DNA of 32,416 bases from Saprospiraceae bacterium. GTDB lineage: Bacteria; Bacteroidota; Bacteroidia; Chitinophagales; Saprospiraceae. Made by a program: the position numbers and the translations under genes. Below are positions 1-15,542 of the stretch, piece by piece. Every line of letters starts with the position of its first letter. The first letter of the stretch is position 1. Below the pieces are notes generated by a model, which saw only the letters and a list, made by a program, of their open reading frames with translations, did not search any database and was not told where the DNA came from. The DNA lies in assembly GCA_029262995.1 (NCBI GenBank), contig JAJCYH010000003.1, positions 1 to 32,416 on the forward strand, read 5' to 3'.

Positions 1-67
1 ACTCAGATGAAGTGACATCTAGTCACTTCATTCAATTCAAAAAGTATTGTAGCAAAGAGATTAAATT

Positions 68-107
68 AAGGCTATGAATTGAAAACCTTCGTTCAAGCCT
101 TTTTTTT
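68..107 (+). terminator. Rho-independent terminator, repeat copy 1 (first)
   Basis: AAGGCT (68-73) pairs with AGCCTT (96-101), and the stem extends by TGAA/TTCA after a one-base bulge. A run of eight T follows. The same structure lies 277 bp downstream in copy 2 (about 345-384) and in the partial copy at 621-661, where the T run is interrupted by one A. Confidence 0.6.
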
Positions 108-131
108 ATTTTTCACTACAAGTGGAATAGA

Positions 132-163
132 AAAGCTCATAGTTAACTCTGTGGGCTTTTTTT
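132..163 (+). terminator. Rho-independent terminator, repeat copy 1 (second)
   Basis: AAAGCTCA (132-139) pairs with TGGGCTTT (152-159) with one G-T pair, and a run of seven T follows. The loop contains the palindrome GTTAAC. The equivalent in copy 2 lies at about 409-440. The partial third copy ends before this hairpin. Confidence 0.55.
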
Positions 164-344
164 ATGCCCAGTTTATAATGGACAATGGTATGCTGACTGA
201 CTACAGGGAGCGTCAGTAGAGGTGATAAGTCGTCTCCCTACTCTATGGCTACCCACCCTCGCTTGAGAGCGAGGTTCACTCAGATGAAGTGACATCTAGT
301 CACTTCATTCAATTCAAAAAGTATTGTAGCAAAGAGATTAAATT

Positions 345-384
345 AAGGCTATGAATTGAAAACCTTCGTTCAAGCCTTTTTTTT
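345..384 (+). terminator. Rho-independent terminator, repeat copy 2 (first)
   Basis: Second-copy equivalent of the hairpin at 68-107, with the same 6-bp AAGGCT/AGCCTT stem, inner TGAA/TTCA pairing and T run. Confidence 0.55.
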
Positions 385-620
385 ATTTTTCACTACAAGT
401 GGAATAGAAAAGCTCATGGTTAACTCTATGGGCTTTTTTTATGCCCAGTTTATAATGGACAATGGCATGCTGACCGACTACAGGGAGCGTCAGTAGAGGT
501 GATAAGTCGTCTCCCTATTCTATGGCTACCCACCCTCGCTTGAGAGCGAGGTTCACTCAGTTGAAGTGACATCTAGTCACTTCATTCAATTCAAAATGTA
601 TTGTAGCAAAGAGATAAATT

Positions 621-661
621 AAGGCTATGAATTGAAAATCTTCGTTCAAGCCTTATTTTTT
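621..661 (+). terminator. Rho-independent terminator, repeat copy 3 (partial)
   Basis: AAGGCT (621-626) pairs with AGCCTT (649-654), followed by A and six T. This is the last recognisable part of the array before ordinary AT-rich spacer. From 666 to 863 I see only AT-rich sequence; it presumably contains the promoter of the downstream protease gene, but no box is good enough to call. Confidence 0.5.
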
Positions 662-13243: not shown

Positions 13244-13367
13244 AGTAATTACAATTATCGGCAAGTTAAATGCTCTTGAAATTTCTTGCAAACGCTTAAC
13301 AAAAGTTTAATTGGAAATATAATGATTATAGGGGGGTGATATTTTTTTAATATTTTTTAATAAAAAA

Positions 13368-13398
13368 TTGCAGAATCCCAGCAATCAATATAAATTTG
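13368..13398 (+). promoter_or_regulatory. Promoter upstream of the tRNA-Asn repeat region
   Basis: TTG at 13368-13370, a 20-bp spacer and TAAATTTG at 13391-13398 match the Bacteroidota promoter pattern (TTG near -33, TAnnTTTG near -7). Transcription would start near 13405, about 7 bp before the first copy of the tRNA 5' sequence at 13412. This is the spacing expected for a tRNA promoter, although the intact tRNA now lies about 400 bp farther on. Confidence 0.6.
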
Positions 13399-13411
13399 CA
13401 CTCGCTTAAAA

Positions 13412-13803
13412 GCCTCCTTTACTGACGTGCCAAAGGCAGTCAGCATTTAGAAGGATCAGATCAAAAATGTTTGATAATATATTTTAAGTTAAAATAAATA
13501 ATTGCCTCCTTCACTGACGTGCCTAAAGCAGTCAGCAATTAAAAGGGTCAGATCAAAGATGTTTGGTTGTATAATTTAATGTAAAATGAATAAAAGCCTC
13601 CTTCACTGACGTGCCAAAGGCAGTCAGCATTTAAAAGGGTTAGATCAAAGATGTTTGGTTGTATAATTTAATGTAAAATGAATAAAAGCCTCCTTAGCTC
13701 CCTCCTTCACGGTGTTACGGCGGGTGCGGCAGCTGGAAGCAGCTTCGCAGCAGTTTTAATGAAGATTAGAACAATAGAATAAAAGTGAAGATTTTAAATA
13801 AAA
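13412..13803 (+). repeat. 92-bp tandem repeats each starting with the tRNA-Asn 5' end
   Basis: GCCTCCTT, the acceptor-stem start of the downstream tRNA-Asn, occurs at 13412, 13504, 13596 and 13688, a 92-bp period, and then at the true tRNA at 13804 (116 bp later). The first three units continue with a hairpin: CTGAC-G-TGCC, loop AAA, GGCA-GTCAG. The second unit has changes in both arms, leaving a shorter stem. An AT-rich tract (TTTGGTTGTATAATTTAATG) and AATAAAA precede the next unit. The fourth unit keeps 13 bases of the tRNA (GCCTCCTTAGCTC) and then switches to a GC-rich stretch with GCTG/CAGC pairing around AGCTTCGCA. None of the copies is an intact tRNA. Confidence 0.85.
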
Positions 13804-13877
13804 GCCTCCTTAGCTCAGCTGGTTAGAGCGGCGGACTGTTAATCCGTAGGTCCAAGGTTCAAGTCCTTGAGGAGGCG
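13804..13877 (+). tRNA. tRNA-Asn (anticodon GTT)
   Basis: A complete cloverleaf can be drawn. The acceptor stem GCCTCCT pairs with AGGAGGC, the D stem is GCTC/GAGC, the anticodon stem is GCGGA/TCCGT around loop CTGTTAA (anticodon GTT), the variable loop is AGGTC, and the T stem CAAGG/CCTTG encloses TTCAAGT. The discriminator base is G. The genome reads CCC rather than CCA after it, so CCA must be added post-transcriptionally. The tail carries a 7-bp hairpin at 13882-13906 whose loop is the reverse complement of the conserved loop of the hairpin family at 14034-14774. Confidence 0.95.
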
Positions 13878-13881
13878 CCCA

Positions 13882-13906
13882 TGAAGCAGAGCTTCGCTTT
13901 GCTTCA
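13882..13906 (-). repeat. Conserved-loop hairpin in the tRNA-Asn tail (inverted member)
   Basis: TGAAGCA (13882-13888) pairs perfectly with TGCTTCA (13900-13906). Read on the minus strand, the loop contains GCGAAGCTC, the core of the loop shared by the hairpins at 14059-14774 (positions 13887-13897 are the complement of GCGAAGCTCTG). It lies between the tRNA 3' end and the terminator. Confidence 0.6.
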
Positions 13907-13933
13907 GCACGCTTCACGGCGCGCCAATGATAT

Positions 13934-13968
13934 TAGCCACTCAATGGAATGAGTGGCTATTTTTTTTT
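13934..13968 (+). terminator. Rho-independent terminator of tRNA-Asn
   Basis: TAGCCACTCA (13934-13943) pairs with TGAGTGGCTA (13950-13959) to give a 10-bp stem, followed by nine T. Confidence 0.85.
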
Positions 13969-14033
13969 ACTAGACCTTATATTCCTAGAATCAATCTTTA
14001 CATCTGGTAAGTTTCATGATTTATTAATATGTC

Positions 14034-14151
14034 GGCCAAGCTCTAGTTTGGGTTGGCCTTGAACTGTGCGAATCTCTAGTTTGGGTTTGTCCAGAACTGT
14101 GCGAAGCTCTGGTTTGGGTTTGTCCAGAATTGTGCGAAGCTCTAGTTCTGG
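14034..14151 (+). repeat. 33-bp repeat array forming conserved-loop hairpins
   Basis: CTCTAG/CTCTGG landmarks recur at 14041, 14074, 14107 and 14140, a 33-bp period. Each complete unit has the loop GTGCGAAGCTCT or GTGCGAATCTCT (14066-14077, 14099-14110, 14132-14143). The flanks differ yet remain complementary: TTGAACT/AGTTTGG with wobble pairs, CCAGAACT/GGTTTGGG (partial), and CCAGAATT/AGTTCTGG (8 bp, one wobble). A further inverted repeat GGCCAA/TTGGCC (14034-14039, 14053-14058) opens the array. Confidence 0.8.
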
Positions 14152-14227
14152 GATTATCTACTCTGTTTAAATTGTGTGGTTTTTATTGTTTACTCTTCAA
14201 TTTATCTCGTCATTACATTACAAGACA

Positions 14228-14518
14228 ATGACAAAGTTAAAAGGCCTAGGTTTTTATGTATATATTTTATTGTCGGAAAAAGACAATCAATTTTATGTTG
14301 GATATACATCGAACTTATATAAGAGATTTCAGCAGCACTGTGATGGACTGACTAAAAGTACAAGAAATAGGAGGCCACTTAAGCTTATATTTTATGAGGC
14401 CTATTTATATAAAGAAGATGCTTTAAGAAGAGAAAAATACTTTAAAACTTCAGCGGGAAAGAGAGCATTGAAGTTAATTCTAAATAAAAAACTATTCAAA
14501 ATCAGATTAAATATCTAG
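14228..14518 (+). CDS. GIY-YIG domain nuclease (small stand-alone)
   Basis: A 96-aa single-domain GIY-YIG nuclease of the UPF0213/YhbQ type. The GIY-YIG pair appears as YVYIL...FYVGYT (about residues 9-26); the catalytic-region Arg is in NLYKRFQQH (about 28-36), and the conserved Glu lies in the FYEAYL segment. The C-terminus is basic (ALKLILNKKLFKIRLNI). I start it at the ATG at 14228 (MTKLKGLGFYVYILL); an ATG at 14174 would add a hydrophobic 18-residue leader unusual for the family. Such genes act on DNA, but cellular roles of the small bacterial forms are largely unknown. It lies between hairpin repeats, downstream of a tRNA, with a damaged duplicate after it. Confidence 0.88.
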   Translation: MTKLKGLGFYVYILLSEKDNQFYVGYTSNLYKRFQQHCDGLTKSTRNRRPLKLIFYEAYLYKEDALRREKYFKTSAGKRALKLILNKKLFKIRLNI

Positions 14519-14520
14519 GT

Positions 14521-14556
14521 CTGCCATAAACCGTGCGAAGCTCTGGTTTATGGCAG
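14521..14556 (+). repeat. Perfect 12-bp stem conserved-loop hairpin
   Basis: CTGCCATAAACC (14521-14532) pairs perfectly with GGTTTATGGCAG (14545-14556) around the loop GTGCGAAGCTCT. It starts 2 bp after the GIY-YIG stop codon and its right arm runs into the truncated GIY-YIG copy. There is no T run, so it is not a standard terminator. Confidence 0.85.
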
Positions 14557-14739
14557 CACTGTGAAGGACTGACTAAAAGTACAAGATATCGGAGGCCTCT
14601 AAAGCTCATCTTTTATGAAGCATATTTATATAAATCTGATGCTTTAAGAAGGGAGAGGTATTTTAAAACTTCTAGGGGAAATAGAGCATTGAAGTTAATG
14701 CTAAATAAAACACTTTTCAAAATCAGATTAAATATCTAG
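14553..14739 (+). pseudogene. Truncated GIY-YIG duplicate
   Basis: From GCAGCACTG at 14553 the DNA repeats 14332-14518 at a 221-bp offset, with many scattered substitutions but an intact frame to the same stop. It encodes the C-terminal two thirds (QHCEGLTKS... to KIRLNI) and lacks residues 1-35, including both halves of the GIY-YIG motif and the catalytic-region Arg, so it cannot be an active nuclease. A GTG in the hairpin loop (14533) is in frame and could start a 68-aa product, but this is doubtful. The duplication unit includes the hairpin after the gene. Confidence 0.8.
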
Positions 14740-14744
14740 GTCTG

Positions 14745-14774
14745 CCATAAACCATGCGAAGCTCTGGTTTATGG
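14745..14774 (+). repeat. Conserved-loop hairpin after the truncated GIY-YIG copy
   Basis: CCATAAACC (14745-14753) pairs with GGTTTATGG (14766-14774) around ATGCGAAGCTCT. The outer CTG/CAG pairs of the sister hairpin at 14521 are lost because the right side now joins a copy of tRNA-Asn sequence (AGGTCC...). Confidence 0.8.
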
Positions 14775-14787
14775 AGGTCCAAGGTTC
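14775..14787 (+). repeat. 13-bp direct repeat of the tRNA-Asn variable loop and T arm
   Basis: AGGTCCAAGGTTC is identical to 13848-13860 within the tRNA-Asn gene. The two copies bracket the tRNA tail, the hairpin array and both GIY-YIG copies (927 bp apart). This is the layout of an integration site (att-like repeat) or a recombination scar; no integrase gene is present between them. Confidence 0.55.
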
Positions 14788-15000
14788 CCTGCTATTTAGG
14801 CCAATCGGCATACAAAATTGGCAATTAATATGGATAAGTCTTTAAAGTACAAAACTGTACTAGTACGAAAAGTATACTTCCTTTTTGTGCGGTCATTATT
14901 AAACGATCAAAGTAGGTAGTGCACTTTCATTTGATGAATTAAAATGTGAAATTAAGGTTCCACAATATGACCAATCATTATAAATGGTTATTCAACTATG

Positions 15001-15029
15001 TAGTTAACTAATTATATTTTATATCTTTG
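15001..15029 (+). promoter_or_regulatory. Promoter and palindromic operator of the marR operon
   Basis: TAGTTAACTA at 15001-15010 is a perfect 10-bp palindrome, and TATCTTTG at 15022-15029 is an exact TAnnTTTG -7 box, 18 bp before the MarR ATG. The palindrome lies where the -33 contact is expected, so a dimeric MarR protein bound there would block its own promoter. Autoregulation is inferred from the position. Confidence 0.5.
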
Positions 15030-15047
15030 CATTGACAATAACTTAAT

Positions 15048-15542
15048 ATGAATAGAGACTACATTAAAGAACTTGGTTACAGGGCCTTGGATAATCGGTT
15101 AAAACGTATAAGCGACAGGATGTCTCATGGTACAAGAAAATTCTTCAAGCAAATAGATATTGATGTAGAGCCTAGCTGGCATTTAGTTTTCAAACTATTA
15201 AAAGAAAAGGATAAGATTACCATGGTTGAAATAGCAGAGCAGCTTGGTTATTCGCATCCCTCAATGGTCGTAATGCTTAAAAAGATGAGGGTTAAAGGAT
15301 ATATAATTGCTGAAAAGGATACCAATGATGGCAGGAAACAAAATATAAAACTCACTCAGAAATCTTATGACCTTCTTCCCAAATTAGAAAAAATATGGAG
15401 CAGCTGTGAAGAAGCTATTTATAAGATGTTAAAAGAAGACCTTTCAATATTAAAACATCTTGATAAAATCGAGGAATCACTTAATACTATTCCGTTCTAC
15501 GATCGCTTTTATCACGAATATATAAATATCAAAAACTTATAA
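15048..15542 (+). CDS. MarR-family transcriptional regulator
   Basis: A 164-aa winged-helix regulator. The helix-turn-helix is around ITMVEIAEQLGYSHPSMVVMLKKMRVKGYI (about residues 56-86), followed by the wing with the family hallmark DTNDGRKQNIKLT (about 90-102). Helices on each side would form the dimer interface. MarR proteins usually repress their own and adjacent operons and release DNA on binding small aromatic ligands or on oxidation; which signal applies here is unknown. The stop codon is 2 bp before the cupin gene, and a palindrome overlaps the likely promoter. Confidence 0.88.
   Translation: MNRDYIKELGYRALDNRLKRISDRMSHGTRKFFKQIDIDVEPSWHLVFKLLKEKDKITMVEIAEQLGYSHPSMVVMLKKMRVKGYIIAEKDTNDGRKQNIKLTQKSYDLLPKLEKIWSSCEEAIYKMLKEDLSILKHLDKIEESLNTIPFYDRFYHEYINIKNL

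Follow-up and report, generated by a model that had tools for sequence, protein, structure and literature searches.

A hairpin family beside small GIY-YIG nuclease genes at tRNA loci of Bacteroidia and its possible role in a tRNA-interrupting, tRNA-restoring cassette

We analysed a stretch of 32,416 nucleotides from a Saprospiraceae bacterium (Bacteroidia), which is contig C3 (JAJCYH010000003.1) of a 3.77-Mb genome and is called the window below; the subject is a family of hairpins found there around a tRNA-Asn gene and a small GIY-YIG nuclease gene. The intact tRNA-Asn (GTT) is located at 13804–13879 on the plus strand (ARAGORN; Rfam tRNA, 72.9 bits) and is the sole tRNA of the window according to ARAGORN. 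The nuclease gene follows at 14228–14518, also on the plus strand; it encodes 96 amino acids from its ATG, in an open reading frame (ORF) that is open from 14174, and matches Pfam PF01541 at 1.1e-17. It is the only ORF of at least 80 amino acids between 13291 and 15048. The UPF0213 structures 1zg2 and 1ywl are matched by our GIY-YIG profile A1, in which Y12, Y23, G25, R33 and H37 are invariant and E69 is conserved in at least 90%; these are the residues which we take to be catalytic. Based on its sequence, the product is a member of the GIY-YIG nuclease superfamily (UPF0213-like), with the domain and the catalytic residues. A second GIY-YIG copy (14557–14739, plus strand) is truncated at the 5′ end and lacks the GIY and YIG motifs, with 83% identity over query residues 33–96, and a 221-bp tandem repeat spans this region. 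With its second gene copy truncated, the array looks partly decayed. An intrinsic-terminator-like hairpin, TAGCCACTCA-atggaa-TGAGTGGCTA, which is followed by a T run, lies between the tRNA and the gene (13934–13968, plus strand; L016 1207–1232).

A preliminary description of this DNA, made from the letters alone, had proposed hairpins with a constant 12-nt loop on varying, self-complementary stems. The loop GTGCGAAGCTCT and its one-base variants are indeed found at 14066, 14099, 14132, 14533 and 14754, all on the plus strand. Allowing up to two mismatches on both strands of the window, there are six matches, the sixth of which is at 13888–13899 on the minus strand; the shuffled window has a mean of 1.1 matches and none of 100 shuffles attains six. 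The 12-nt loop itself does not stand as the unit. Read on the minus strand, which is the better reading, it becomes AGAGCTTCGCAC, and the unit combines an AGA/AC internal loop with an inner mini-helix, the GC-TTC-GC mini-hairpin cap. The opposite strand of this mini-hairpin, GCGAAGC, is an unusually stable DNA mini-hairpin.

Hairpins with the same loop stand on both sides of the GIY-YIG gene. Directly 3′ of its stop codon is the hairpin CTGCCATAAACC-AGA-GC(TTC)GC-AC-GGTTTATGGCAG (14521–14556, minus strand), whose 12-bp stem is perfect, as had been reported, and whose DNA fold has −12.8 kcal/mol and a z-score of −6.9. Another copy, with the loop ATGCGAAGCTCT, lies directly 3′ of the truncated gene copy (14742–14774, minus strand; DNA fold of 14745–14774, z −5.7 vs shuffles). 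Both of these hairpins are also stable as RNA folds. Upstream of the gene there is a tandem trio with the loop GTGCGAAGCTCT and the AGA/AC internal loop on the minus strand (14038–14152, minus strand; 33-bp period, 3.5 copies). Its stems fold weakly both as DNA (z +0.6, −0.5 and −2.0) and as RNA (z −0.6, −0.6 and −3.0), so the trio alone is uninformative on covariation. The hairpins at 14521–14556 and 14742–14774 are strong, and those of the trio weak. Concerning the inverted core noted at 13887–13897, it lies inside a hairpin-forming stretch, TGAAGC-AGA-GCT...AGC-AC-GCTTCA (13882–13916, plus strand), at the tRNA 3′ end, which resembles the GAAGY/RCTTC type of the gene subfamily described below. 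At the same site of genome G010 (L105), GCC/GGC replaces the GCT/AGC of the window, and this compensating change supports the subfamily-type reading of the stretch. The stretch is missing after tRNA-Asn in five same-genus loci with downstream sequence (L097, L098, L099, L103 and L104). The partial core is also present, as AGCTTCGCA at 13741–13749.

The tRNA fragments of the locus had been missed in the preliminary description and are the larger finding. The original promoter and leader of tRNA-Asn (13363–13411, plus strand) are severed from the tRNA body: the window at 13363–13419 aligns with 84% identity to L106 1452–1509, where the promoter runs directly into the tRNA, and the two are likewise contiguous in L098, L099, L103 and L104, none of which has a 5′-side insert. 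In the window, the promoter and tRNA nt 1–8 are separated from the intact tRNA by an insert of 384 bp, which comprises 92-bp units of nt 1–8 and one hairpin each (up to about 13695), then nt 1–13 once more and a hairpin-rich stretch. Nucleotides 1–8, GCCTCCTT, occur in three copies on the plus strand (13412–13419, 13504–13511 and 13596–13603) as part of the 92-bp tandem repeat at 13407–13695, and the copy of nt 1–13 lies 5′ of the intact tRNA (13688–13700, plus strand). Each 92-bp unit contains one hairpin of the form CTGAC-G-TGCC(AAA)GGCA-GTCAG, the second of the three with TGCCTAAAGCA (13422–13629, plus strand). At the other end, tRNA nt 45–57, AGGTCCAAGGTTC, abut the last hairpin (14775–14787, plus strand). 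On sequence grounds, the window fits the layout of a cassette which would interrupt a tRNA gene and restore it.

This genome has a second GIY-YIG locus next to tRNA-His on contig C25 (L013/L014), and bulged-G (CTGAC-G) hairpins are found there too; GIY-YIG gene sequence at the end of C25 is shared by the end of C24, which continues with a truncated second copy. Because the 5′-side hairpins of the window resemble those of this other locus, tRNA-Asn may be the meeting point of two hairpin types and their two GIY-YIG partners. The pattern CTGACGN{9,39}GTCAGCA is found at ten places in this genome (two for the reversed control) and at 0–3 places in each of 12 other genus members; one of the ten adjoins an apparent 5S rRNA on C13. 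The contig start (window 1–661) is a 277-bp tandem repeat carrying CTGACG..GTCAGCA hairpins, and 134 bp of it are common, at 97–98%, with the stretch beside the apparent 5S rRNA on C13.

Ten small GIY-YIG proteins were searched against the class, and 197 of 296 genomes have matches, which frequently form tandem arrays. Occurrence is sporadic, with 26 of 60 genomes (own genome counted) carrying such a gene. The tRNA pattern was first noticed in the initial loci and then tested on 40 further loci, taken down the match list from G125:C70 (one place per cluster, unread before and starting beyond base 1500; three higher unread places on the list were skipped), and 20 control regions were taken from the contigs of these test loci. 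A tRNA is present within 300 bp of the GIY-YIG gene at 32 of the 40 test loci vs none of the 20 controls, and gene and tRNA share the strand in all 32; small GIY-YIG genes thus cluster strongly with tRNA genes. A copied piece of the neighbouring tRNA is found nearby at 27 of the 40 loci (reversed-tRNA control 1/40), and at 26 of the 27 it lies on the expected side, beyond the gene. Where the tRNA is upstream, the piece is beyond the gene at 18 of 19 loci, and where the tRNA is downstream, the piece is before the gene at all eight; the exception is L138, with the piece between tRNA and gene. With the pieces placed in this way, the unit behaves like an insertion into the tRNA gene that brings the missing part along. 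The layout of tRNA half plus GIY-YIG gene recurs with many different tRNAs, and it appears that the cassettes interrupt tRNA genes and themselves supply the restoring half.

The remaining eight test loci have no ARAGORN tRNA. By eye, tRNA 3′ pieces are visible in four of them (L133, L141, L155 and L157), whereas none were seen at first reading in L131, L135, L144 and L146; in L216, which is the same place as L135, a T-arm-like sequence precedes the hairpin. L144 (G254) has GTCACCCTGAGCTTGTCGAAGGGT-type repeats, which are not tRNA pieces, on both sides of its GIY-YIG gene. In L076 (G151:C9:905000-911500) there are ten tandem GIY-YIG copies after tRNA-Met, mostly 457 bp apart; tRNA nt 48–74 follow each copy, and the first and last units, as read, include the terminator as well. 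This array is suited to measuring copy-number change. L082 contains three tandem GIY-YIG copies with tRNA 3′ parts between them. Palindromes inside tRNA pieces were considered as a general feature and rejected, as just 17 of 31 inserts, from 23 loci, score above 95% of shuffles. Two decayed tRNA copies were also observed. In L027 (1159–1329, minus-strand orientation) a dead tRNA-Glu copy is present in four consecutive pieces, split by three short inserts and with no target duplication. In L105 of G010 (1655–1747, minus-strand orientation) a pseudo-tRNA has kept only its acceptor ends, GCCTCC...GGAGGCGCC, around hairpins.

Many close relatives of the window gene share a hairpin form. For the subfamily, 21 loci were taken (19 of the closest relatives from another class search plus L017 and L018; the copy on C24 of the own genome was excluded) and scanned for any helix broken by a 2×1 internal loop. 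The AG/C internal loop ranks first and is found at 12 of the 21 loci. None of 87 other GIY-YIG locus records (among which there are a few overlaps) has it, nor do 20 distant regions lying 20 kb off the test loci, nor the 21 subfamily loci after dinucleotide shuffling in any of five rounds. A 3×1 AGA/C internal loop was rejected as the shared form, because it fits just 6 of the 21 loci vs 12 for AG/C. The outer helix is mostly ..GAAGY/RCTTC.., and the helices vary in sequence, both sides having changed at 8 of 11 pairs across 16 hairpins. The earlier proposals of a constant motif on changing, compensating stems and of the GIY-YIG nuclease as candidate partner are therefore supported by relatives of the gene, which carry AG/C hairpins with covarying helices.

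On balance we hold it probable, by no wide measure, that the hairpins serve the neighbouring small GIY-YIG nuclease as cognate sites, and that the two together form a miniature selfish cassette lodging in tRNA genes. This reading starts from the observed architecture, the tRNA association, the shared structure and the side on which tRNA fragments lie. Hairpin recognition, cutting, single-strandedness and mobility, which we infer, would proceed as follows. The nuclease would recognise the hairpin by its AG(A)/C internal loop, which is flanked by helices whose sequence is largely free, and would probably meet it as single-stranded DNA while the DNA is replicated or recombines. The hairpin or the tRNA would be nicked or broken, and repair would copy the cassette, leading to tandem pile-up. 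The cassette would bring a tRNA half (the 3′ part if after the tRNA, the 5′ part if before it), which would rebuild one intact tRNA, so that insertion would be harmless and the host would stay alive. Leftover tRNA halves and hairpins would accumulate.

Several observations weigh against this reading. In the window the internal loop is AGA/AC instead of AG/C, and the lowest-energy fold of 13882–13916 is a different hairpin, TGAAGCAGAGC with GCTTTGCTTCA, in both DNA and RNA folds. A dispersed multi-copy REP-type family, as suggested in the preliminary description, is not supported in this genome: with up to one mismatch there are nine loop sites genome-wide (six for the control pattern), of which five are the window cluster, and three of the four outside near-matches (the fourth is on C32) were examined and have neither complementary flanks nor a hairpin. 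On these three sites, dispersal of the exact loop was rejected; in the genome-wide search it is confined to one locus. Two of the outcomes named beforehand as counting against the family, a loop found only here and simple local duplication, each hold in part, the exact loop being unique to this locus in this genome and some copies having arisen by local duplication. The TGAAGY hairpin pattern is mostly limited to the GIY-YIG locus, with one structured place in this genome; by eye, structured extra copies are found only in G266, G406 and G425. Also, the AG/C hairpin is missing from 9 of the 21 subfamily loci; by eye, six of these belong to a terminal-inverted-repeat group without tRNA, and the rest are L017, L018 and L212. 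The 2×1 scan also found CA/G (10 loci) and TA/A (4 loci), which on reading are the same hairpins with the register shifted by one, and the exact loop is thus ambiguous by one base. Covariation over the 16 hairpins is 0.62 vs 0.165 for shuffled and at most 0.10 for slid ones, but 13 of the 16 rows had been picked for pairing and AG/C; that AG and C are constant there is accordingly no evidence, and only the sequence changes carry weight. The inner helix ends in a terminator-like T run at 6 of the 12 AG/C loci, and those hairpins may double as terminators. Concerning the tRNA fragments, 4 of 17 tRNA loci of the same genus that lack a GIY-YIG gene also have pieces, which therefore occur outside GIY-YIG loci as well; in L097 (G004) there is a related 5′-side insert and no GIY-YIG gene in the examined stretch.

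A strict homing endonuclease could account for part of these data. It would cut both strands of the intact tRNA gene in cells that lack the cassette, and the hairpins would just insulate or inactivate the leftover tRNA half. SegB belongs to the GIY-YIG nucleases. The accessible part of PMC13096335 describes this phage homing endonuclease as co-located with tRNAs and as driving segmental amplification. Its parallels favour a homing explanation here, as do the tRNA adjacency and the sporadic occurrence; like SegB, the genes studied are placed at tRNA genes (32/40 loci) and scattered among relatives (26/60 genomes, own genome included). Unlike here, SegB acts in a phage context, and that part of PMC13096335 describes neither restoration of a tRNA half nor cognate hairpins. 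An intact tRNA remains beside the cassette, so a tRNA cutter would attack its own host unless the hairpin were needed, and the common AG/C loop suggests that the hairpin itself is what is recognised; we therefore consider strict homing unlikely.

We also regard as improbable that the hairpins work at the RNA level, for instance as terminators or tRNA 3′-trailer processing signals, with the GIY-YIG gene as a bystander or an RNA cutter. The hairpin of 13882–13916 is placed between tRNA and terminator, the subfamily hairpins are located at tRNA 3′ ends, and those at 14521 and 14745 have stable RNA folds; the T runs at 6 of 12 loci raised our estimate for this explanation from a still lower level. 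However, both hairpin orientations are seen, L222 and L223 by eye also have hairpins downstream of the gene, the window has a separate terminator at 13934, and the AG/C motif is lacking in the 87 other GIY-YIG records although 69 of them have a tRNA within 300 bp. A terminator-only explanation was rejected on the two orientations and the separate terminator, yet half of the 12 inner helices are terminator-like. Least probable, and already disfavoured, is ordinary local duplication in tandem beside a tRNA gene prone to recombination, with GIY-YIG as a passenger and no partnership, for which speak the 33-, 92- and 221-bp tandem repeats, the restriction of the exact loop to this locus and the tRNA pieces at 4 of 17 loci without GIY-YIG, and against which stand AG/C hairpins with different stems at loci of other genera and a tRNA-half plus GIY-YIG layout that repeats across many tRNAs.

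Beyond the cassette proposed for the window, a wider claim is one which we doubt slightly more than we believe: that the small GIY-YIG nucleases of the class drive widespread minimal mobile elements of about 300–460 bp, with one gene and paired single-strand hairpin sites, which would interrupt tRNA genes, often at loops, and restore the 5′ or 3′ part, and whose gene-less derivatives would be small palindromic repeats without a known mobiliser. Genome G110 has an element of 293 bp, made up of a single GIY-YIG gene and the ends CCCCGTAGGAT...ATCCAACGGGG, and these ends, 4–16 bp apart in the listed sites, recur as 24 mini-palindromes in that genome. Mini-palindromes of this type are absent from the other 118 genomes searched. 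The same link for C24/G345-type ends fails in all eight genomes, so the case for gene-less derivatives is that of one genome, G110. In addition, CCTGCCTGCCGGCAGGCAGG-type palindromes are spread across the genome and are not necessarily part of the cassette; as a tRNA-specific feature they were rejected, being present in 15 of 24 genomes at up to two mismatches, several of them away from tRNAs. A cluster of CCTGCCTGCCGGCAGGCAGG palindromes was seen in L194 (G055:C2:1200000-1213500), most of them between GAGG and AATC inside another repeat.

Among known systems, tRNA-targeting integrative elements use tyrosine integrases and restore the tRNA end. As in those, the proposed cassette would supply the tRNA part displaced by insertion, and a duplicated tRNA part is found at 27/40 loci, at 26 of them at the far end (in the window nt 1–8, 1–13 and 45–57). 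Unlike those, it has no integrase, since the GIY-YIG gene is the only ORF of at least 80 amino acids at 13.3–15.0 kb; the unit is about 300–460 bp, and 5′ as well as 3′ parts are used. Ssn of Neisseria is reportedly a GIY-YIG single-strand-specific nuclease family with a repeated target, NTS, in hundreds of copies. The likeness to Ssn consists in a small single-domain GIY-YIG protein whose gene is flanked by its own hairpin-like repeats; the same-loop hairpins on both sides of the window gene correspond to these, with a target role that we infer. The differences are that copies here are confined to the locus (the genome-wide search finds the exact loop at this locus only), that the internal loop is constant and the stems variable, and that the cassette lies in a tRNA gene. 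Ssn is the nearest relative in principle, which lowers novelty.

Short palindromes that flank or pair with a nuclease or transposase gene, often as opposite-orientation pairs, are shared with the REP systems treated in the accessible part of PMC3733652, where GTAG REPs are paired with RAYTs and CGTC REPs, including dRS3 of Neisseria, apparently have no dedicated transposase. RAYTs are Y1/HUH enzymes, unlike the GIY-YIG partner here; no Y1/HUH RAYT gene is found beside the hairpins among ORFs of at least 80 amino acids at 13291–15048, and the palindromes are not dispersed in the genome. As dispersal was tested and not found and no RAYT is adjacent, we place the arrangement apart from both Ssn and REP/RAYT, among nuclease-plus-palindrome systems. 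The accessible part of the GIY-YIG superfamily survey (PMC1564403) contains no such tRNA or hairpin association, and the term GIY-YIG is absent from the accessible text of RepRanger (PMC12306157). A survey of titles and abstract starts, with subscription journals mostly outside its scope, found no description of the arrangement.

If the cassette reading is true, orphan bacterial palindromes gain a candidate nuclease, and the gathering of tRNA fragments and small GIY-YIG genes at tRNA loci of the class is accounted for. It would also mean that a tiny parasite can inhabit essential RNA genes with the help of neither splicing nor an integrase. As a substrate, the AG/C hairpin can be tested immediately. 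At the end of the contig (window 32259–32416), there is a 27-bp tandem repeat of 5.9 copies with 100% matches.

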